From an uncultured SAR116 cluster alpha proteobacterium (lineage in GTDB: Bacteria > Pseudomonadota > Alphaproteobacteria > Puniceispirillales > Marisalimonadaceae): DNA of 64,000 nucleotides. The position numbers and the translations under genes are program-made. Location: contig CACEFQ010000004.1 of NCBI GenBank assembly GCA_902558885.1, positions 119,533 to 183,532 on the forward strand, in the 5' to 3' direction. Shown here in pieces: positions 11,153 through 45,471 of the stretch (position 1 is the stretch's first letter; every line of letters starts with the position of its first letter). Below the pieces are notes generated by a model, which saw nothing but the letters and a program-made list of their open reading frames with translations, made no database searches and had not been told where the DNA came from.

Positions 11153-12202
<1,050 letters not shown>

Positions 12203-12286
12203 CTATAAGGTTTTTATAGGTTGAAAATGAAATAATTCATAAAATTATATTCGAACTAATAACTTAAATCAAAGAATTAATAAATA

Positions 12287-13306
<1,020 letters not shown>

Positions 13307-17678: not shown

Positions 17679-19121
17679 CTATTTTAGTTCTAATGCTACA
17701 AACTTAGTTCCATTTTCTACTTTTACTAAAAACAACAAGGCTTTTCTTTTTTGTTTCACTGCATTTTTGATGGCATCATCTATAACATTTATAGAATTTA
17801 CTTCTATCTGACCAACTCTTATTATGACCATACCTGGATTTAAACCAGCTTGCTGAGCTGAACTATTATCTTTAACAGATGTTATAACTACGCCAACATC
17901 AATGTCACTAAGTTTGTACTTTGATTTATTTTGGTCAGACAACTCTTCTGCAGTGAACCCTAGTTTATCGTATTCTTTAGCTTTAACATTCTTTTTAGAA
18001 GTTTTACCAATCAAGTTTTCTTTTTCAGCTAATTCAAGTTCACCCAAGGTAACATTTAGTGTTAATTTTTTCCCATTTCTCAAAATTACTATTGGAACAG
18101 ATTTACCTACAGGGGTACCAGCTACGACTTTCGGAAGTTCTTTCATACTTTTAATTTCAGTATCATTAAATTTAATTATAACATCACCTGTTTTGACACC
18201 AGCTTTGTCAGCAGGACCTCCTGCAGTTGCAGAAGATACTAGAGCTCCTCTAGCAGTTTTCATACCCAAACTTTCTGCAATTTCATCTGAAATTTCTTGA
18301 ATTAAAACACCAAGCCAACCTCTTTTTGTTCTACCATATTGCTTTAATTGATCAGTAACCTGTTTTGCTAAATTTGATGAAACAGCAAAACCTATTCCTA
18401 CCGAACCGCCAGATTGTGAAAAAATAGCAGTATTAATCCCAACAACGTTACCCTTCATATCAAATAATGGTCCACCAGAATTACCCCTATTTATAGATGC
18501 ATCTGTTTGAATGTAATCATCATATGACCCAGAAAGATTTCTTCCTCTCGCGGATACTATGCCAGCTGTAACTGTACCACCAAAACCAAAGGGATTTCCT
18601 ATTGCCATTACCCAATCGCCAACTCTAAGCTTATTAGAATTACCAAATTTTACAGCTTTAAGTTTTCTATTTTTTGGATCAATTTTTAAGAGAGCAACAT
18701 CAGTTTTAGGATCTTTACCTACCACAGTAGCTTCAAATGAAGTGTCATCATATAAAATAACCATTATTTTTTCAGCATTATCAATAACATGGTTGTTAGT
18801 AATTACGTATCCTGATTTGTCGATAATAAAACCAGAACCTAATGATTGAGCTCTTCTTTTTTTATTTTCAGGTTTATCAAATTGTTTAAAAAAATCTTCA
18901 AAAGGAGAGCCTGGTGGGAAAGATGGCATTTCTCTTGATTTTTGTTGAATAACTGTAGTTGTTGATATGTTAACAACAGAAGGGCTTAATTTTTCAGCTA
19001 AATCAGCAAAGCTTTCTGGAGCACTTTTTGCGTTTGCAACATTTAACGTTAACAACAAAATTGTTAGACTAGCAATTATGGAAAATTTATGATTATTTTG
19101 AAATTTAAACATGTAAGACAT
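17679..19121 (-). CDS. degP: Periplasmic serine protease DegP/DegQ (HtrA)
   Basis: Trypsin-like GNSGGPLF, NNHVIDNA, two PDZ domains. Confidence 0.93.
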   Translation of the reverse strand: MSYMFKFQNNHKFSIIASLTILLLTLNVANAKSAPESFADLAEKLSPSVVNISTTTVIQQKSREMPSFPPGSPFEDFFKQFDKPENKKRRAQSLGSGFIIDKSGYVITNNHVIDNAEKIMVILYDDTSFEATVVGKDPKTDVALLKIDPKNRKLKAVKFGNSNKLRVGDWVMAIGNPFGFGGTVTAGIVSARGRNLSGSYDDYIQTDASINRGNSGGPLFDMKGNVVGINTAIFSQSGGSVGIGFAVSSNLAKQVTDQLKQYGRTKRGWLGVLIQEISDEIAESLGMKTARGALVSSATAGGPADKAGVKTGDVIIKFNDTEIKSMKELPKVVAGTPVGKSVPIVILRNGKKLTLNVTLGELELAEKENLIGKTSKKNVKAKEYDKLGFTAEELSDQNKSKYKLSDIDVGVVITSVKDNSSAQQAGLNPGMVIIRVGQIEVNSINVIDDAIKNAVKQKRKALLFLVKVENGTKFVALELK

Positions 19122-19226
19122 TTACTCACCATTAAGTTATTTTAATAAATATATATATATAAAAAAGGCCCTTTTAAGGCTGAATTAAGCAATTGATATG
19201 TCGATTTATAGACATAATAAATTTAA

Positions 19227-20099
19227 TTATTTTTTACCATCTTGCTTACCGAAAAAGCTAAAAAAATCACTGTCAGGACTCAATAACATTGTTGTTCCAT
19301 CATCTGCAAAAGTGTTTTCATAAGCTAGCATGGATCTATAAAATTTAAAAAATTTTTCATCTTGTCCAAATGCATCAGAATAAATCTTAATAGCTTGGGC
19401 ATCCCCATTACCTCTTAAAGCCTCTGCTTTTCTCTTACTCTCTGCAACAAGAACAACTTTTTGTTTTTCTGCATCGGCACGTATTTTTTGAGCCTCTTCT
19501 GCACCTTCTGCTCTGAATTCCTTAGCTTCTTGCTCTCTTTCAGTTTTCATTCTATTAAATATGTTTTGACTAGTTGCTTCTGGGTAATCGGCTCTTCGAA
19601 TACGAACATCAACAATTTCCATACCTAATTTTTTTATAGTAGAATTAACTTCATCCCCAATATCTTCTACAATTTTCGTTCTAGCATCAGATAAAATGGC
19701 TGTAAGTTCAAACTTACCAAAAACCCTTCTTACAGATGAGTCAATTATAGATTCTAAACGTTGACGGGCACCAAATTCATTTCTCACTGTTTGATAGAAT
19801 AATAGTGGGTCGGTTATTCTAAATCTAGAATATGTATCGACCTCAAGTCTTTTTTGATCAGCTAGAATAACTTCTTCTGAATCCTGGGACACTAGGGAAA
19901 GAACTCTTTTTTCGAAAAAAGTAACTTCTTGGATAAATGGTATTTTAAAGTTCAACCCTGGTTTGTTGACCAGTCTTTTAGGTTCACCAAATTGAAGAAC
20001 TAAGGCTTGTTGAGTTTGATCAACAGTAAAAAAAGAACTTAGGATACCAAATAAAACTGCTAAAGTTCCTAAACCTGAGATAATTTTTGTAGAGGACAT
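19227..20099 (-). CDS. hflC: Protease modulator HflC
   Basis: SPFH/band-7; QALVLQFGEPKR; downstream of hflK. Confidence 0.94.
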   Translation of the reverse strand: MSSTKIISGLGTLAVLFGILSSFFTVDQTQQALVLQFGEPKRLVNKPGLNFKIPFIQEVTFFEKRVLSLVSQDSEEVILADQKRLEVDTYSRFRITDPLLFYQTVRNEFGARQRLESIIDSSVRRVFGKFELTAILSDARTKIVEDIGDEVNSTIKKLGMEIVDVRIRRADYPEATSQNIFNRMKTEREQEAKEFRAEGAEEAQKIRADAEKQKVVLVAESKRKAEALRGNGDAQAIKIYSDAFGQDEKFFKFYRSMLAYENTFADDGTTMLLSPDSDFFSFFGKQDGKK

Positions 20100-23732: not shown

Positions 23733-23844
23733 ACAAACATCTCAATTAAAAATTTTATCTAGAGGTATTATGTGCTCTTTAATAAAAAAAATAAATACTG
23801 TATAGTAAAAAAGTCATTTCGATGACTATGGTGATAAACATTTT

Positions 23845-24130
23845 TTAGAATAAGCTTAGCGGACCCGGGGGCGGTACCCGGCACCTCCACCATTATTTGG
23901 GGGTGAAATAGGATCGACGCGTGTAGTAAAAATTAAACTTTCACTCGGCATTGTACCACCGTTATCGGACTAAATTAAATAGTTGCAAACGACAACTATG
24001 CTCCGGTAGCTGCAGCAGCGTAAGCAGCCAAAGCAACCGAAAACTAGTCCTGTTCTATAGCTAGAACTGGCGGGGTTATTGTTTACCTGGCAACAGAAAA
24101 ACTTTGGTGGCGAGAAGTTACTTCTCGCCA
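23845..24130 (+). ncRNA. ssrA: tmRNA, circularly permuted two-piece (alphaproteobacterial type)
   Basis: Acceptor part ...CCGGGGGCGGTACCCGGCACCTCCACCA (ends 23892) precedes GGGGGTGAAATAGGATCGACG (from 23899). Acceptor stem GGGGGUG/CACCUCC with G3:U70. Tag GCA AAC GAC AAC TAT GCT CCG GTA GCT GCA GCA GCG TAA = ANDNYAPVAAAA*. Outer ends approximate. Confidence 0.95.
24109..24129 (+). terminator. Hairpin at ssrA 3' end (ggcgagaag-tta-cttctcgcc)
   Basis: 9-bp perfect GC-rich stem, followed by weakly T-rich sequence; may be a terminator or processing stem. Confidence 0.55.
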
Positions 24131-36753: not shown

Positions 36754-37068
36754 TTAGGAAATCCTAGTAATACTTCCTGAAACTTCTGCTCCTAAATCAA
36801 TAGATAAAGCATTTGTTTTCAAATTGCCTTCAACTTGTGCAGTACTTGCAACATTAAGAGTGTTAGCAGCAACTTCACCTTTTACTAATCCCCCTAATGT
36901 AACTTTATCAGCAATCAAATTTCCGTCAAAAATACTGTTAGCTTCAAGAAGTACATCTTTAGCTCTCAACTCGCCTTTAAATCTTCCAGCAACAACTACC
37001 GATGACCCAGCAGAATCTAAGTTGCCTTCCATGACCAATTCTTCTGATATATATGTAATTTCACTCAT
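36754..37068 (-). CDS. Bactofilin-family protein (copy 1)
   Basis: Repetitive beta-helix pattern VVVAGRFKGELRAKDVLLEANSIFDGNLIADKVTLGGLVKGEV. Confidence 0.85.
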   Translation of the reverse strand: MSEITYISEELVMEGNLDSAGSSVVVAGRFKGELRAKDVLLEANSIFDGNLIADKVTLGGLVKGEVAANTLNVASTAQVEGNLKTNALSIDLGAEVSGSITRIS

Positions 37069-37092
37069 AACTAATCCTCATAAAAACTTAAA

Positions 37093-37494
37093 TTATTTCT
37101 CTTCTGTGTTTTCTACTTGAACTTCATCAGTTTCTTCAGCCACATTAGTTTCATCTGCTTTTTTTGCATCAGCCTCATTCCAATTATGAACTACCCTGCA
37201 ATTTAAAGCAGCACCTCTATCCATTTGTAATGACTTGTAATGAACCTCACCACTAATTCTTGAAGTTTCAGTTAGCCAGACACTATCAGCCTTCATTTTA
37301 CCTTCATATTCTCCTGCGATGACTACTAATTCTGAATCAACTTTTCCATGAAATTTGCCGGTTGATCCAATTGTAACTTTTTCAGTTGTTAAATCAGCTT
37401 CAACATATCCATTGATTTCAATGGATTTGGCATTAGATATTTTCCCTGTAAACCTTGCACCAGATCCCAAAACTGCCTGTTTATTTGCCATCAA
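37093..37494 (-). CDS. Bactofilin-family protein (copy 2)
   Basis: ARFTGKISNAKSIEINGYVEADLTTEKVTIGSTGKFHGKVDSELVVI. Confidence 0.88.
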   Translation of the reverse strand: MMANKQAVLGSGARFTGKISNAKSIEINGYVEADLTTEKVTIGSTGKFHGKVDSELVVIAGEYEGKMKADSVWLTETSRISGEVHYKSLQMDRGAALNCRVVHNWNEADAKKADETNVAEETDEVQVENTEEK

Positions 37495-37515
37495 ATATCT
37501 CCTTTAGTTGTAGGT

Positions 37516-37540
37516 TTTTATTTTATTTTATTTTATTTTA
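37516..37540. repeat. Five tandem TTTTA units between bactofilin copies 2 and 3
   Basis: tttta x5 seen directly; overlaps copy 3 stop codon. Confidence 0.85.
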
Positions 37541-37876
37541 TTTTTTTCTTTTTCCAACTTGAGCTTCAACAACAGCTCCCTCTTCTATTGAAATATTTTC
37601 ATAAAAAACTTCACCAGTGATTTTACCAGTAGATTTAATTGAAACAATATCACCTGAAACTTGGCCATCACATTTACCAGATACTGTTACTACATCTGCG
37701 TTTATATTTCCTTTTAAAATACCAGTATCTTCAACTGATAAACTATGACATTTAATATCTCCAACAACTGACCCTAATAATACTAAGTCTCCATCTGCAG
37801 AAATTTTACCTTTTATCTTCATGTCACTTGAAATTACAGATTTTTCATTTTCAGTATCGTTTGTTTTTCCTAACAT
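37538..37876 (-). CDS. Bactofilin-family protein (copy 3)
   Basis: MKIKGKISADGDLVLLGSVVGDIKCHSLSVEDTGILKGNINADVVTVSGKCDGQV. Confidence 0.9.
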   Translation of the reverse strand: MLGKTNDTENEKSVISSDMKIKGKISADGDLVLLGSVVGDIKCHSLSVEDTGILKGNINADVVTVSGKCDGQVSGDIVSIKSTGKITGEVFYENISIEEGAVVEAQVGKRKK

Positions 37877-37987: not shown

Positions 37988-38004
37988 TTGGTATGAATGA
38001 TGCA
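37988..38004 (+). promoter_or_regulatory. Candidate sigma-54 promoter TTGGTATGAATGATGCA
   Basis: GG-N10-GC spacing, TTGG-N9-TGCA; about 43-52 nt upstream of the 38047/38056 start. Confidence 0.45.
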
Positions 38005-38046
38005 ATTAACTTGCCATAATAATTGTAAGACATCAAAAATTTAAAG

Positions 38047-38430
38047 TTGGACAGCATGGCAGAAGAAATAATTGATTTAAGAGATCGTATTGAAAAAATG
38101 CGTATACAGATAGAAAATGAGGCTACAGAACAAATTTTAGTTGATGCTCCTATAGAAGTACATCAAAAAACTAGTAATTCAAACATATCTGTATCAATGG
38201 AAAATAAAAATAGTTTCCCGAATCAAAATTTTGAGGTAAAAAAAGATTCTGAAAATTTTGATAAATTTGAAAAAAAAGTTAGCAGTAATTTTACAAGAAA
38301 CGACTCTTTTCCTGCAGTAAGTTTGTCAGTGAAGAATCCAGTTTCCAGTAAAGTTTTAATAATATTAGTAACTTTACAAATATTATCTAATATTGGAATT
38401 TTATATTTTTTATATCTTGGTATGGAGTAG
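38047..38430 (+). CDS. Tail-anchored hypothetical protein with LRDRIEKMR motif
   Basis: Low-complexity middle, C-terminal TM VLIILVTLQILSNIGILYFLYL; start may be the Met at 38056. Confidence 0.65.
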   Translation: MDSMAEEIIDLRDRIEKMRIQIENEATEQILVDAPIEVHQKTSNSNISVSMENKNSFPNQNFEVKKDSENFDKFEKKVSSNFTRNDSFPAVSLSVKNPVSSKVLIILVTLQILSNIGILYFLYLGME

Positions 38431-38433
38431 TAG

Positions 38434-39813
38434 GTGGCTAATACCACAATTAACAAATTTGGAAAAAAACTTCCTCCAGTGAAAACGGGACAACGTTTTG
38501 GAGATGAAATTAAAAAAGATAAAAAAGTAGGCCTTTTTTCAGAAAGACGTTTTTTAATATTTACTAAAAGAGGTCCAATTGAAATAGCTTTTAAACCAAT
38601 TCATTATGCTAGCGTAATAATGACAACAGTTATAGGATTAACAAGTATAGTTTACTGGTCTGCAAAAGGAATTTACTCAGCAATAGATGTTGCCAAAAAA
38701 AATGATATAATCACTGAAGCTTCAGCAAATATTAATAGTCCAATCGAAAATGACTCAGACACTCTTGTCAACATTAATACAAAAGATCAGTCAAATATTT
38801 CATTACCAATTCTTAAAAATAACTCTCTATTTGAAAAAAATGACACAATCTCTTATGAGCCTCTAATTCATAAAGATGTAAATAATAACAAAAATCCTCT
38901 GGGTGATAATGCAAAACAAATTTTTGGGAAAAGTGTCTTTTTTGAAACAAAAGAAATTCATAATCAAACAACAGCTAATAATAATTTGAGTATAGATTTG
39001 TTTAATGAAACTATGAGAAATCAGGATTTACCTGTTGATTCTACAATTCCAAATGTAAATGAGAGTAATATTTTCATTTCTGATGATTCCACATCTAATG
39101 AAGTTAATAACAATTTTGTTCCTAGACCTCCACAAATAAACGAGAAAGTGAAAACACTTCGTTTTATCGCTTCCGTTGATAATGAGCTCAGTCAAATGGA
39201 AAATGTTTTTGATTTGATAAATGTTAAGTTAAATAACAAGGATTTAGTAAGTTTAAAGTCAATTACAAATAAAAATAAAGTGATTGACCCAGATAGTGAT
39301 GATTTTTTTAGAAGCCTAAAAAAAAGAATAAATTTGCTTGCGATTTATAAAGATGCTCTTCAAAATATTCCATTAAAACCACCAATGGAACATTATTACG
39401 TTTCTAGCCCGTATGGTCCCAGAAAGCATCCGGTAACAGGGAAATATAGAATGCATCATGGTATAGATTTAGCTGGGACTTGGCAAGAAAATGTATCTGT
39501 ATCAGCGGATGGAACTGTAGTATTTGCAGGGTATCATGGTTCTTTTGGGAAAGTTATAAGAATTAAACATAATTATGGAATAATGACTACCTATGGTCAT
39601 CTAGCAAAAATCAATGTAAGACGAGGTGACTTAGTTAGTGAAGGTCAAGTAATAGGTAAGATGGGTAGAACAGGCAAGGTAAAAGGTGCACATCTTCATT
39701 ATGAAGTCTCTGTAAATGGTAAATCTCAAAATCCTGCTACTTATATTAAAATTGGTAGAAATCTTCTAAGCAGAACAAGTTTGAAAAATTTTGCTAATAA
39801 AAACTTAAACTAA
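38434..39813 (+). CDS. M23-family peptidoglycan metallopeptidase with N-terminal TM
   Basis: VSSPYGPRKHPVTGKYRMHHGIDLAG and GAHLHYEV metal-site motifs. Confidence 0.94.
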   Translation: MANTTINKFGKKLPPVKTGQRFGDEIKKDKKVGLFSERRFLIFTKRGPIEIAFKPIHYASVIMTTVIGLTSIVYWSAKGIYSAIDVAKKNDIITEASANINSPIENDSDTLVNINTKDQSNISLPILKNNSLFEKNDTISYEPLIHKDVNNNKNPLGDNAKQIFGKSVFFETKEIHNQTTANNNLSIDLFNETMRNQDLPVDSTIPNVNESNIFISDDSTSNEVNNNFVPRPPQINEKVKTLRFIASVDNELSQMENVFDLINVKLNNKDLVSLKSITNKNKVIDPDSDDFFRSLKKRINLLAIYKDALQNIPLKPPMEHYYVSSPYGPRKHPVTGKYRMHHGIDLAGTWQENVSVSADGTVVFAGYHGSFGKVIRIKHNYGIMTTYGHLAKINVRRGDLVSEGQVIGKMGRTGKVKGAHLHYEVSVNGKSQNPATYIKIGRNLLSRTSLKNFANKNLN

Positions 39814-39820
39814 TTTGTTT

Positions 39821-39837
39821 TTGGCATAACAAATGCA
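39821..39837 (+). promoter_or_regulatory. Candidate sigma-54 promoter TTGGCATAACAAATGCA
   Basis: GG-N10-GC; implied start near 39848, then aaaggag and ATG at 39868. Confidence 0.55.
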
Positions 39838-39867
39838 TCTCTTTGTCTTTATAAAAGGAGATTAGTA

Positions 39868-40047
39868 ATGTCTTTAGAGGATATAAATAAACATACAGAA
39901 GAAAAAAAACAGTTATTAAATAATTTAAACGACTTTATTATACAGATTGATTACTTTGATCAAAAAGGTATAAAAAAACGTAAGAATAGAATCCCATTAA
40001 AATATATATTCAATTCTAGAGATATAAATGCTCAAACATTAATTTAA
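39868..40047 (+). CDS. 59-aa small protein MSLEDINKHTEEKKQLLNNLNDFIIQIDYFDQKGIKKRKNRIPLKYIFNSRDINAQTLI
   Basis: Manual translation; strong Shine-Dalgarno aaaggag; missed by the ORF track (all its entries are 60 aa or longer). Confidence 0.6.
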   Translation: MSLEDINKHTEEKKQLLNNLNDFIIQIDYFDQKGIKKRKNRIPLKYIFNSRDINAQTLI

Positions 40048-40069
40048 TATTAATTCATTAAATTATAAT

Positions 40070-41554
40070 TTAGTTTGATGCAAATTTTGTCAATCTAGCT
40101 TGTTTTCTTCTTTGTGAACTTGATGGTATATTTAACATATCTCTATATTTTGCAACTGTCCTTCTAGCTACATCCATACCTTCTTTATTCAAAATTCCAG
40201 CTAATTTATCGTCACTTAATGGTTTTCCTGCAATTTCTGATGAAATTAGATTTTTAATAGTTTCTCTCACAGCGGAAGCAGCATGTAATTCTGAATTTTC
40301 TGAACCTGAAATTGATGCAGAAAAGAAATTCTTCAATGGCATAACGCCCCATTCAGTCAAAATTAATTTACTATTAGTGACTCTTGAAACTGTACTTTCA
40401 TGCATTCCAATTTCATCAGAAATATCTTTAAGTATCATTGGTTTCATATGACTAAGACCATGTCTAAAAAAACCAACTTGTTTTTTTAATATCTCAGATG
40501 TCACTTTTAATATTGTTTTATTTCTTTGATCAACAGCTTTTTTTAACCAACGAGCTTCTCCAATCTTTTCTAGTGCGAAATTATTACCTTTTTCATCAAG
40601 GTTATAATTATTCATTTCCTCAATATAGCTCTCATCAACATTTACACTTGGTAAAGTTGAACCATTTAAATCAATACGCCATCCTTTTGCAGATCTTGTA
40701 ACAATGATGTCTGGTTGTTGAACATTAGTATTTTCTTGATTAAAATGTTCAGTAGGTTTTGGATTAAGTGTTTTTAAAACTTTAATCATTTGAAATAGTT
40801 TATCTTCAGAAACTTTGCAAAGTTTACTAATCTGTCTGAATTTTCCTGAGGGTAAAATGTTGAGGTTTTTAAGAAGAATTTCAAAATGCTGATTAAATTG
40901 TTTGTTTTCAATCAATTGAATCTTCAAACATTCTGCCAAGTTTTGGGAAAAAATTCCTGCAGGCTCTAAATTTTTTAATTTTGAAAGTGTTTTTTCAACT
41001 ATAGAAATATCAACATTCAATTCTTTTGCAACTTCACATGTAGATGAAATAAACCAACCACTTGGATGAAGATAATCTATCATACCAATTGCAACGCTTT
41101 TACTGTGACTATTCTTAAAATTCAAATTTATTTGACCTATTAAAAATTCTCTAAGAGAAACTTGATGCTTAAGTGTTTTTTCTATTACCTCTCCTGCAGA
41201 TTTATTTGATCCTGATTTAATAACTTCTTTATCAAAAAGTTTTTTATTTTCCATTTTTGAATTCGAAGATATATGTGTATCAAAAGTATTTTCTAAATCA
41301 AGTTTACTCTCATTTTTCAATGGATCTACCGTACTATGCATATTTTCATAAGTATTAGAATTGTTTTCTTCCACATTTTTTTTAATTATTGTTTGACTAT
41401 TTTCTTTTAAAAAAGGATTTTCTGATTGTGCTTTATCAATAAAATCTGATAATTCAATATTATTTAATTGCAACAACTTTATTGCTTGTTGCAACTGTGG
41501 TGTCATTATTATAGACTGGTTTTGTTTAATTTTTAACTGTTGTCCTAATTTCAT
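40070..41554 (-). CDS. rpoN: RNA polymerase sigma-54 factor
   Basis: MKLGQQLKIKQNQSIIMTPQLQQAIKLLQLNNIEL region I; C-terminal ARRTVAKYRDMLNIPSSSQRR RpoN box. Confidence 0.97.
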   Translation of the reverse strand: MKLGQQLKIKQNQSIIMTPQLQQAIKLLQLNNIELSDFIDKAQSENPFLKENSQTIIKKNVEENNSNTYENMHSTVDPLKNESKLDLENTFDTHISSNSKMENKKLFDKEVIKSGSNKSAGEVIEKTLKHQVSLREFLIGQINLNFKNSHSKSVAIGMIDYLHPSGWFISSTCEVAKELNVDISIVEKTLSKLKNLEPAGIFSQNLAECLKIQLIENKQFNQHFEILLKNLNILPSGKFRQISKLCKVSEDKLFQMIKVLKTLNPKPTEHFNQENTNVQQPDIIVTRSAKGWRIDLNGSTLPSVNVDESYIEEMNNYNLDEKGNNFALEKIGEARWLKKAVDQRNKTILKVTSEILKKQVGFFRHGLSHMKPMILKDISDEIGMHESTVSRVTNSKLILTEWGVMPLKNFFSASISGSENSELHAASAVRETIKNLISSEIAGKPLSDDKLAGILNKEGMDVARRTVAKYRDMLNIPSSSQRRKQARLTKFASN

Positions 41555-41773
41555 TTAAATCTCCACTATTGATTAATTCGAAATAATGAAACAGATAAAA
41601 ACAAATAGTATTAATAAAATCAAAATCTTAATTTGACAAAAAAAAATGACAAAAAAATGACTTTTATATTACTTTTTTTGCAAAATTTTATTAATAAAAA
41701 CAATGGGTTAATTTGTTTATTTTTTTTATGTTTAAAAAAACTAATTTTTTATTTAAAGTAAATAGTCAATAAT

Positions 41774-42055
41774 TTGGCTTTAAGAAGTTTATGTATTTTT
41801 ATGATAAACAACAATCAAATTTCATCGTCTTCTAAAGAAACAAAAAAAACTTACAAATGTAGAAACTGTTATATTATTAGATTATTTCTATTAGCAGTTG
41901 CTTTTATATTACTGTTAGCTCTTATTCAAAGTGACAATTTGCATTATTTAGATTTTGTTACCCCTTCAAATGCTGCAACATTAATTATAATTATAGGTTT
42001 GATAATGTTTTTGGTAAAGGCAACTAAGTATGTTTTCGAGAAAAAAAAACATTAA
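41774..42055 (+). CDS. Small membrane protein, two TM helices
   Basis: Two hydrophobic stretches after a CRNC motif; start may be the internal MINNNQ. Confidence 0.5.
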   Translation: MALRSLCIFMINNNQISSSSKETKKTYKCRNCYIIRLFLLAVAFILLLALIQSDNLHYLDFVTPSNAATLIIIIGLIMFLVKATKYVFEKKKH

Positions 42056-42059
42056 TATA

Positions 42060-42569
42060 TCATCTATCTCTAACTAATCTTACATAATTTGGAATAAACC
42101 CAGGAAATCTTCCAAAGGTATGTCCTGTAAAAAAATTTACAGTCCACATAAATTGAGATTGCCATGGGTTTTTTTCGTTAGTCCAAAATGACTCAGGCGG
42201 TGTATTGGGAAATATTTTCAAATTTATTTTGACTTTTTGACAGTCTTTACAAACTATAGCCTCCAATTCTTTCCTATTTGGCAAACGCCAATTGCCTTCA
42301 AGTTGTTTATTTGCTTGAATAATAACAGAGTCTATTTGGTCTAACTTGACTTTTATTGGATTACCAACACACTTGTCTTTGTCCCACACCATACCTACGG
42401 TACAAGTCATCCATTCAAGCTTTTGACTTAAATCAATAACATAATATCCCCTAGAGATAAAATTATTAGCCCATACATTATTGAAATTAAGCAAAAATAA
42501 TAATATTATAATAGGAGTATAAATTTTAGAGAATGGTGATTTTATATTTAACATAACAAACTCCAGCAA
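42060..42569 (-). CDS. DUF1566-like secreted protein
   Basis: LEWMTCTVGMVWD, NWRLPNRKELEAIV, SFWTNEKNPW, YVRLVRD. Confidence 0.75.
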   Translation of the reverse strand: MLEFVMLNIKSPFSKIYTPIIILLFLLNFNNVWANNFISRGYYVIDLSQKLEWMTCTVGMVWDKDKCVGNPIKVKLDQIDSVIIQANKQLEGNWRLPNRKELEAIVCKDCQKVKINLKIFPNTPPESFWTNEKNPWQSQFMWTVNFFTGHTFGRFPGFIPNYVRLVRDR

Positions 42570-42592
42570 GTTTTTTTAAAATTAAATTCATT

Positions 42593-42609
42593 TTGGTCCC
42601 ATTCTTGCA
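42593..42609 (+). promoter_or_regulatory. Candidate sigma-54 promoter TTGGTCCCATTCTTGCA
   Basis: TTGG and TTGCA with GG-N10-GC spacing; 48 nt upstream of the pomA-like ATG. Confidence 0.55.
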
Positions 42610-42656
42610 GAATTTATGCCTAACACCATTATTATTTAATAAAAAAAGGCAAGAAA

Positions 42657-43421
42657 ATGGATATAGCATCTTTAATAGGACTTATAGGAACCCTTGGAAT
42701 GATAGCTGGAGCAATGATATCCTCTGGCGGAATAGGAGCATTTATAGATACGCCCTCTATGTTGATTGTTATTGGAGGAACATTCTTTGCCGTAATGTAC
42801 AGATCAACCTTGCCGATGTTTTTAGCATCATTTGGAACACTTGTTAAGGTTTTTATGCCAGGAGCTAAAAAGCACGATGAGTTAATAACACGAATAACAG
42901 AGCTTGCAGGTATTGCCAGAAAAGACGGAATGATGGCACTAGAGGGTCAGGAAGTACCAGATAAATTTTTTGAAAAAGGGCTTCAAATGTTAGTTGATGG
43001 TGCTGATGAAACAAAATTGACAGAGCAATTAAACAGAGAAGTCAAGGCCATGAAAGCCAGGCACGAAGATATGACAGGTGTGTTTCAAGCTTGGGTGGAT
43101 TTAGCTCCAGCGATGGGTATGATTGGCACTTTGATTGGACTAGTTGCTATGTTGGGAAATATGGCTGATCCAAAAGCCATTGGTCCAGCAATGGCCGTTG
43201 CTTTGTTAACAACTTTATATGGTGCAATGATTGCTAACTGTATTTTTATGCCCATTGTTACAAAGCTTGAGGGATATTCAGCTCATGAATTACTGTATAG
43301 AGAAATGGTTGTAATGGGATTAAAATTTATTTCCAGAGGTGAAAGTCCAAGAAATATTACTGATCAATTGGTAGCTAATATGCCACCTAAAATTCAAGCT
43401 CAGATTGAAGAAGCAGCTTAA
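42657..43421 (+). CDS. pomA: PomA/MotA-family stator protein
   Basis: APAMGMIGTLIGLVAMLGNMADPKAIGPAMAVALLTTLYGAMIAN, resembling PomA. Confidence 0.9.
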   Translation: MDIASLIGLIGTLGMIAGAMISSGGIGAFIDTPSMLIVIGGTFFAVMYRSTLPMFLASFGTLVKVFMPGAKKHDELITRITELAGIARKDGMMALEGQEVPDKFFEKGLQMLVDGADETKLTEQLNREVKAMKARHEDMTGVFQAWVDLAPAMGMIGTLIGLVAMLGNMADPKAIGPAMAVALLTTLYGAMIANCIFMPIVTKLEGYSAHELLYREMVVMGLKFISRGESPRNITDQLVANMPPKIQAQIEEAA

Positions 43422-43447: not shown

Positions 43448-44623
43448 ATGGCTGAAGCTCAGGTAGAAGTAGAAGAAGAAGAAGAAGAATGTCCTAAATG
43501 CCCACCAGCTGGAGCTCCTGCATGGATGGCTACATTTGCTGATATGGCTACTTTATTGATGGCCTTCTTTGTATTAATCTTATCTTTTGCAGAATTTAAT
43601 GTCCCCAAATTTAAACAGATTAGTGGTAGTTTAAAAAATGCCTTTGGAATACAGAGGATTGTCCCAGTTGTAGAACAACCTAAGGGTACAACCGTTCTTT
43701 CTCTTGATTTTAGCCCCTCTCCAGCACCATCAGTAACTAAGAATCTTACTCAACAAACTACAGATGCAGAACAAAAAAATTTAGATCTTAAATCTGAAAT
43801 TGATGAAGGAGATAGTGCAAAAAGTAATTCTAAAGAGGTTTTGGATGCAAAAGAATTGAGTGAAGAATTAAAAGATAAAGTATTATCTGAGGATGTAAAA
43901 GTAGAAACTGTTAATGATAAAGTTTTAGTAAGCTTAAATACTGAAAACAAAACTTCAAAAGAAATTTCAAAGTTAATTAAGGATACTGTTGATGCTGTTG
44001 AAAAAGCTCGTGAAAAAACAGGTGCCACTGAAACTGACGTACTGATTGGCGGAATAAATCAAGATATTCAAAAAATGGCGTCCGCAACAATAGAAAATAA
44101 AATTTTAAAAGATCAAGTAAATAACCTCGAAAAACAAACCTCTGAAAGTAAAAAACAAATCCAAGAAAAAACTAAAATGGCAGAATTTAGTGAGGATCAA
44201 CTAAGAGTAGCTCTAAAGCAAGAAATAGGTCAAGGTTTAGCTGAAGTTCAGAGAGAAAAAGATAGAGTAGTTGTAACAGTAGGATCTGCAGGCGCATTTA
44301 GTTCTGGTTCAGCAAAACTTACAAAAAAAGCCAAAGAAATTATGGGAAAAATTGCTAAAGTTAGCGCAAAAGGGGCAGGTCAAGTAAACGTATCTGGGCA
44401 TACTGACGACGTACCATTAATTTTTGGAGGTCAATACCGGGATAACTGGGATCTCGCAGCAGCCAGAGCCTCAAGTGTTGTTCAGGAATTAGCCAAAGCT
44501 AACACAATTCCTTCAGAGAAACTAAGAGCTATTAGTTTTGGAGAAACTAAACCTATAGAACAAAATGATACTGAAAGAGGAAGAGAGAAAAATAGAAGAA
44601 TTGAAATTGAAATTAAGTATTAA
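43448..44623 (+). CDS. pomB: PomB/MotB-family stator protein, OmpA-like C-terminus
   Basis: CPKCPPAGAPAWMATFADMATLLMAFFVLILSFAEFNVPKFKQISGSLKNAFGIQ; VSGHTDDVPL peptidoglycan-binding domain. Confidence 0.9.
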   Translation: MAEAQVEVEEEEEECPKCPPAGAPAWMATFADMATLLMAFFVLILSFAEFNVPKFKQISGSLKNAFGIQRIVPVVEQPKGTTVLSLDFSPSPAPSVTKNLTQQTTDAEQKNLDLKSEIDEGDSAKSNSKEVLDAKELSEELKDKVLSEDVKVETVNDKVLVSLNTENKTSKEISKLIKDTVDAVEKAREKTGATETDVLIGGINQDIQKMASATIENKILKDQVNNLEKQTSESKKQIQEKTKMAEFSEDQLRVALKQEIGQGLAEVQREKDRVVVTVGSAGAFSSGSAKLTKKAKEIMGKIAKVSAKGAGQVNVSGHTDDVPLIFGGQYRDNWDLAAARASSVVQELAKANTIPSEKLRAISFGETKPIEQNDTERGREKNRRIEIEIKY

Positions 44624-44661: not shown

Positions 44662-45471
44662 ATGGATGAGGTAAATTATATTTCAAGTAACCTTGATGAA
44701 GGATATTCTCCAGAAGCAATAGCAAATATGGATAATGCACTTGAAGAGTTTATTGTATCATTATTAGAGATCAAACCTGAGCTTGCTAATATTGCTGTGT
44801 TTAGAGGTCTTAAACTGACAATTAACGGTCGTCCAAGAAGAATTGGAGAATTAGGCAATGTAGAATCACCTGATGATCCTATGAAAATTGAACTAATGAT
44901 TTATAACAAAGAGCAAATCGAACAAGTTTTAGAGTTTATAAAAAACAATGGCTTTCCTGCTAAAAATGAACCAGGTTCGCAATTTATCCACATAAGGGTT
45001 CCAAAACCTTCTAGAATGCAATTAGAAGAACTAGGAGATGAAGTTATTAGAAGAACTAATTCTGCTTGTACTAGACTGATGAAAATTAAAACAAATACAG
45101 GTTTGAGAATTAGAGCAGCTATGGAAAAAGAATACATAGACCAACGCATATCTGGCGTTGCTATAAAAAAAATTGATAATGCTTTAGAAAGAATTACTAA
45201 AGAAATGAAGATAGTTGGTGTTATGAAAAGAAAAACAATTCTTGGTTCTTTTTTTAAGACCGTTGAAAGAGACGATGCTGATATCGTCAAAATTATTAAC
45301 AAAAGATTAAAATTAGAAAAAGATAAAATTGCTAAAGAACTAGAACTAAGAATTAAAGATGAAGCTTCAGAAGGACAAGATCAGAAGACAGATAATGTTG
45401 AAACAAAAAATATAAAAAGTAATGAAGAACAAAAAGTAGAAGAACTAAATAATTCTTTAAATTCAAATTAA
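44662..45471 (+). CDS. Divergent ribosome recycling factor-like protein with charged C-terminal extension
   Basis: From MDNALEEF to ELGNV aligns without gaps over 45 aa to my recollection of E. coli RRF (MDKCVEAF...QLASV); also NGRP for YGTP, IHIRVPKPSRMQLEELGDEVIRR for [21 protein letters not shown], and AIKKIDNALE. Confidence 0.7.
   Translation: MDEVNYISSNLDEGYSPEAIANMDNALEEFIVSLLEIKPELANIAVFRGLKLTINGRPRRIGELGNVESPDDPMKIELMIYNKEQIEQVLEFIKNNGFPAKNEPGSQFIHIRVPKPSRMQLEELGDEVIRRTNSACTRLMKIKTNTGLRIRAAMEKEYIDQRISGVAIKKIDNALERITKEMKIVGVMKRKTILGSFFKTVERDDADIVKIINKRLKLEKDKIAKELELRIKDEASEGQDQKTDNVETKNIKSNEEQKVEELNNSLNSN

Follow-up and report, generated by a model that had tools for sequence, protein, structure and literature searches.

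Bidirectional promoters in bacteria have been described for sigma-70 by Warman, Grainger and colleagues: a near-symmetrical −10 element serves both polymerase orientations, divergent starts lie about 18–25 bp apart (7–25 bp in the broader definition of the class), and one binding event excludes the other (PMC12825309, PMC10268837). Sigma-54, or RpoN, is absent from both papers, and a full-text literature search, incomplete in its coverage, found no pair of sigma-54 promoters that share a −12 box. Divergent sigma-54 operons with separate promoters are known from orp1/orp2 of Desulfovibrio vulgaris, where the two operons are co-expressed by sigma-54 and one activator, and IHF sites lie between the two sigma-54 promoters and activator sites (PMC3897727). 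Here we describe, in an uncultured SAR116 cluster alphaproteobacterium, two gaps between divergent genes beside rpoN that carry putative sigma-54 promoters facing both ways. As in the sigma-70 case, one core element would serve both orientations, and close divergent starts are predicted; unlike in the sigma-70 case, in which the −10 box is shared, the shared element here would be a −12 box, that of sigma-54, an unrelated factor that requires an activator. As at orp1/orp2, the putative sigma-54 operons are divergent, but here the predicted promoters overlap and share a −12 box.

The DNA analyzed (the window: 64,000 nucleotides, positions 119,533 to 183,532 of contig CACEFQ010000004.1) comes from a genome of 1.65 Mb in 36 contigs that is 76% complete; about three dozen further species of its genus served for comparison. 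The genes around rpoN are:

bacA, 37538–37876, minus strand: first of three bactofilin genes (36754–37876); PF04519, 3.6e-21
tm124, 38056–38430, plus strand: 124-aa protein with a C-terminal hydrophobic stretch; ORF conserved in the genus
m23, 38434–39813, plus strand: M23 peptidase gene; PF01551, 6.2e-29
orf59, 39868–40047, plus strand: small conserved protein; convergent with rpoN
rpoN, 40070–41554, minus strand: sigma-54; PF04552, PF04963 and PF00309 all present
lcl, 42060–42554, minus strand: Lcl C-terminal domain protein; PF07603, 3.4e-21
motA, 42657–43421, plus strand: stator gene; PF01618, 1.1e-28
motB, 43448–44623, plus strand: stator gene; PF13677 and PF00691

The order bactofilin genes (minus), tm124, m23, orf59, rpoN (minus), orf93, lcl (minus), motA, motB, rrfl, der (minus) is kept in every genus member with a spanning stretch, and much of it is also kept in other families. 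In Alphaproteobacteria, a bactofilin and a membrane-anchored M23 peptidase form a shape-determining module (bactofilin–LmdC), and in Hyphomonas and Rhodospirillum the bactofilin and LmdC (M23) genes lie in one operon (PMC10945521). Bactofilin genes adjoin an M23 peptidase gene here as well, but the two are divergent and joined by a putative shared sigma-54 promoter rather than placed in a single operon. The best NCBIfam match of motA is PomA-like and falls under its cut-off; the RRF-like protein of the motAB operon (44662–45471) scores 25.6 bits against a Pfam cut-off of 29.7 and has no NCBIfam match. The orf59 protein (core IDYFDQKG) is conserved in the genus, with substitutions mostly at third codon positions; the gap to the convergent rpoN is about 1–35 bases in the genus, and a sigma-54 transcript of orf59 could run antisense into rpoN. 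Elsewhere in the window, positions 23774–24114 hold a permuted alphaproteobacterial tmRNA gene with the tag ANDNYAPVAAAA.

A preliminary description of this DNA had proposed three plus-strand sigma-54 promoters around rpoN, each a short distance upstream of a start codon. Their coordinates, strand and GG-N10-GC spacing are all correct, and the three sites end 30–51 bases upstream of a start codon:

37988–38004, plus strand: sigma-54 −24/−12 site facing tm124/m23; TGCA common to an opposed site; predicted start ~38015
39821–39837, plus strand: one-way sigma-54 site facing orf59, without a mirrored half; predicted start ~39848
42593–42609, plus strand: sigma-54 site facing motAB; TGCA common to an opposed site; predicted start ~42620

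The accompanying estimate of about one chance match per window was too low: dinucleotide shuffles give an expectation of 2.29 matches to TTGG-N9-TGCA, vs. 8 observed on both strands (8 was reached in 1 of 100 shuffles), and the looser TGG-N9-TGC occurs 31 times, vs. 14.8 expected. Intergenic DNA makes up about 6% of the window, yet three of the eight TTGG-N9-TGCA matches are intergenic. The other five lie within genes, and on that ground the motif count was dropped as proof of promoters; alone it is weak support, and promoter status rests on position and conservation, not on count. Upstream of rpoN itself there is no recognizable sigma-54 site, and rpoN autoregulation was rejected on that ground.

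At 37988 and 42593 the sequence reads GG-N9-TGCA-N9-CC; that is, a second site on the minus strand has the same palindromic TGCA as its −12 element. The earlier list of sites, while right in its three plus-strand entries, was incomplete, missing the opposed sites:

38001–38017, minus strand: opposed sigma-54 site ATGGCAAGTTAATTGCA, facing the bactofilin operon; shares TGCA 38001–38004; predicted start ~37990
42606–42622, minus strand: opposed sigma-54 site TAGGCATAAATTCTGCA, facing lcl; shares TGCA 42606–42609; predicted start ~42595

In all five sites, 10 bases separate a −24 GG from a −12 GC. The bactofilin-facing site is nearer the sigma-54 consensus than the 37988 site (score of 11 vs. 10), and the lcl-facing site is the weakest (AGG not TGG, CTGC not TTGC; score of 9). 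The orf59 site has no mirrored half, and no divergent gene adjoins it. GG-N9-TGCA-N9-CC occurs 18 times in the genome, 16 of them in genes; the only two intergenic occurrences are the 37988 and 42593 elements. These two are also alone in having the mirrored CC among 14 sigma-54 sites that fall outside genes or on gene edges. Divergence alone does not produce the fused form: in the flagellar cluster, the divergent gaps between flagellin and fliS and between the two activator genes have separate or single, unfused sites. Both gaps beside rpoN thus have, between divergent genes, a near-symmetrical core common to both orientations; the shared box, TGCA, is the sigma-54 −12 and not a sigma-70 −10 box, which makes the elements a variant of, not a member of, the class of sigma-70 bidirectional promoters.

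Matches in coding DNA were useless as a negative control for conservation: 7 of 10 persist across all or almost all genomes, as the encoded proteins are conserved, so that only intergenic conservation is informative. A reversed-pattern control of the genome search was set aside, as the reversed pattern has CG, which is scarce in such DNA. The GG and GC are kept in 25 of 25 alignable genus genomes at the 37988 site, in 26 of 26 at the 39821 site and in 22 of 22 at the 42593 site, and at the opposed sites in 25 of 25 (38001–38017) and 22 of 22 (42606–42622). In the orthologous intergenic regions, therefore, the GG and GC are conserved, the outcome on which the original claim had been staked, while the bases around and between them drift. 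The site facing orf59 combines an invariant TGGCA and TGCA with a variable spacer, the pattern expected for a −24/−12 site. The tm124 spacer is more conserved in the genus than a promoter requires, and an additional element may overlap there. The mirror half has 13 of 14 and 10 of 14 invariant columns at the fused sites, vs. 0 of 14 at orf59; in the rest of the upstream DNA about 10–30% of columns are invariant. That the matches are due to chance, the motif being short and frequent in AT-rich DNA, would agree with the coding majority of the window matches (five of eight) and with the roughly two expected at random, but it is scarcely credible against GG and GC kept in every alignable genus genome amid drifting intergenic DNA, and kept in other families.

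The genome was examined for sigma-54 sites by pattern searches and by a consensus scan of sampled stretches (score of at least 10; intergenic DNA about 2–6% of long stretches). Intergenic sigma-54-like matches number 4 in the window and 8 in the first 40 kb of a second contig, C7, where a ninth match lies inside a doubtful 118-aa ORF upstream of fliS; no intergenic match at this score was found in the next 60 kb of C7 or in 20 kb around the NtrC and NtrX genes. The C7 sites precede flagellin, fliK and TPR-protein genes and the second activator gene with fliE, and where a check was possible, most proved conserved in other species. Another sigma-54-like site lies directly after fliD, at a contig end. 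In hit density, then, the proposed regulon held up: sigma-54-like sites cluster at flagellar operon starts and not in other sampled stretches. The sites at 2241, 13710 and 17043 of locus L101 (contig C7) precede TPR-repeat genes, one with a methyltransferase domain, that adjoin flagellins and are perhaps filament modification genes.

PF00158 identifies four NtrC-type proteins in the genome, and in eight other species the number per species never exceeds four; weak matches in proteins of about 290, 786 and 860 aa were left out of the count, the 786- and 860-aa proteins probably being Clp ATPases, judged by length. Two of the four are NtrC and NtrX, and the other two form a divergent pair within the flagellar cluster:

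Locus L101 (contig C7), 17073–18203, minus strand, and 18392–19588, plus strand: activator pair, divergent, FleQ/FleT-like
Locus L103 (contig C1), 7818–9218, minus strand, and 11456–12892, minus strand: NtrX and NtrC, GAFTGA loop absent

The search for activators elsewhere in the genome thus yields two that have the sigma-54 contact loop (GSFTGA and GAFTGA), both encoded in the flagellar cluster, and rpoN and a GAFTGA activator occur in one genome. NtrC and NtrX are without the GAFTGA loop in every copy read, in all species read, and both are ruled out as the activator; because they are without it, nitrogen control here is probably sigma-70-dependent. Caulobacter likewise has four such activators, with NtrC and NtrX lacking the loop (PMC10274813). 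The 376-aa member of the flagellar pair has a Fis-type HTH (HTH_8) and matches no receiver domain; its 398-aa partner lacks an HTH and is followed by fliE, and the site upstream of it, TTGGCAAGCTTCTTGCT, is conserved in 6 of 6 genomes. The arrangement is that of a FleQ/FleT-type pair with the second activator in line with fliE behind a sigma-54 site. In Rhodobacter sphaeroides, FleQ together with sigma-54 drives fleT-fliE among other genes, and a complex of FleQ and FleT goes on to activate a sigma-54 class to which motAB belongs (PMC7277832). The likeness, two sigma-54 activators of which the second lies with fliE behind a sigma-54 site, is one of gene context and domains; unlike in R. sphaeroides, the activator genes here are divergent, and the regulon seems to add the bactofilin/M23 and lcl genes. 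The claim of an RpoN regulon around rpoN is supported by the intergenic conservation, the clustering of flagellar sites and the two activators; as to its extent, the three arms claimed stand, and the bactofilin operon and lcl bring the number to five. Sigma-54 in this genome is probably a dedicated flagellar/envelope sigma factor.

We compared the elements in the family of the window (f1), in other families of the same order (f3, f4), in a family of another order (f12), and in f21 and f102. Both fused promoters are kept in four genera of f1, wherever the gap was available. At 40 f1 bacA/tm124 loci (19 distinct sequences), the columns of the element that never vary are TTGGTA, two bases of the spacer, TGCAA and GCCA, which gives TTGGTA-N7-TGCA in one direction and TGGC-N7-TTGCA in the opposite one; positions 18–24 and 29 onward are variable. 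The motA site has counterparts at a similar distance in f3, f4, f12, f21 and f102. The lcl/motA gap of f3 and f4 has an unfused motA site, with a separate lcl-facing opposed site in several genomes; f102 has two opposed sites back to back; and in f12 the opposed sites of the bacA/tm124 gap lie apart. Most relatives thus have the two sites unfused, which indicates that leftward promoters exist independently of the overlap.

These comparisons bear on the possibility that the rightward promoters alone are functional, that the mirrored GG is kept as initially transcribed sequence or leader, and that bactofilin and lcl use other promoters. The rightward motA site is the better supported, recurring in five other families, one of which (f21) has no recognizable lcl-facing site, and the lcl-facing site of the window departs from consensus. 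We nevertheless consider this possibility unlikely, since separate leftward sites face lcl or bacA in f3, f4, f12 and f102, the mirrored bases kept in f1 coincide exactly with the sigma-54 core while those of the spacer vary, and no downstream sequence is conserved at the one-way orf59 site. It is highly improbable that the palindrome is instead the operator of a dimeric regulator: the inverted-repeat shape, strongest in f12 (TTGGTATAGATTCTGCAACTTTAATACCAA), would suit an operator, but lone half-elements with the same −12 occur at flagellar operons and orf59, the arms vary independently inside the sigma-54 consensus (from ATGGCAAG to TTGGCTTG), the arms are separated by 60–90 bp in other families, and element orientation and start distances fit promoters. 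We conclude that the three plus-strand sites are probably sigma-54 promoters of a flagellar/envelope regulon, two of them being halves of bidirectional promoters that share one −12 box.

A class-wide scan for fused promoters in 387 genomes used a strict form of the pattern, which misses weaker forms, including the window's own lcl/motA element. Besides this genome, where the match is clearly intergenic between divergent genes, 14 others had matches, and among these only the f12 ones are clearly so placed; in f12, whose genomes are 1.3–1.4 Mb, the fused form lies between motA and lcl, beside rpoN. In a tree of RpoN, MotA and MotB, f12 adjoins f1, with the split from the other families supported at 98; f1 and f12 are both AT-rich, and attraction in this tree is possible. 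The fused lcl/motA promoter of f1 and f12 may have arisen once, with spread by descent or by island transfer, and in the genomes examined only f1 has the fused bacA/tm124 promoter. The gaps are short in f1 (about 100 and 135–180 bp) and mostly longer in other families, lengths consistent with formation of the fused form from separate promoters by compaction. By eye, the f3 bacA/tm124 gap retains the gene order and has no visible sigma-54 site; one f3 member has a possible sigma-70-like TTGCCG...TATACT there, which suggests a promoter switch.

According to the mechanism that we propose, the palindromic TGCA would be the −12 box for RNA polymerase–sigma-54 bound in either orientation, with the −24 GG lying about 12 bases from TGCA, on its left for rightward transcription and on its right for leftward transcription. 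Each predicted start falls near the −24 element of the opposite promoter, and the divergent starts would be about 25 bp apart. The two holoenzyme positions would overlap almost wholly, with one polymerase bound at a time, so that occupancy should be exclusive. The sigma-54 closed complex is stable until an activator hydrolyses ATP; as a consequence, orientation at binding should decide which operon fires. A flagellar activator, the candidates being the flagellar-cluster pair (one FleQ-like, one FleT-like), would fire the complex, and one or the other operon would be transcribed. The bactofilins would thereby be coupled to tm124 and the M23 peptidase, and the Lcl protein to the MotAB stator. 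From the sites, their conservation and geometry, the gene context and the activator set, all directly visible in the DNA, we infer RpoN binding, use of both directions, exclusive occupancy and drive by the two flagellar activators. We think it likely, with somewhat less assurance than for the promoters themselves, that sigma-54 promoters can be bidirectional through a shared palindromic −12, that two such promoters were fixed beside rpoN in one lineage by compaction of separate promoters, and that polymerase orientation picks the operon.

A flagellar sigma-54 circuit that co-expresses the bactofilin and M23 arms, and the stator and the Lcl-domain protein, is plausible. In B. subtilis, bactofilins are reported to be needed for flagellar hook and filament assembly (PMC4627819); a full-text literature search, incomplete in its coverage, found no paper on a bactofilin gene with an RpoN promoter. 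In bacteria, it is the symmetry of the sigma-70 −10 element that has accounted for bidirectional promoters, and a sigma-54 version would extend the principle to an unrelated family. If so, the stable, activator-awaiting sigma-54 closed complex should make the competition between orientations stronger, and measurable. Across a large group of Alphaproteobacteria, a single flagellar RpoN circuit would take in bactofilin/M23 cell-wall genes together with the stator, and it would become possible to test what a small RpoN regulon of dedicated function does.
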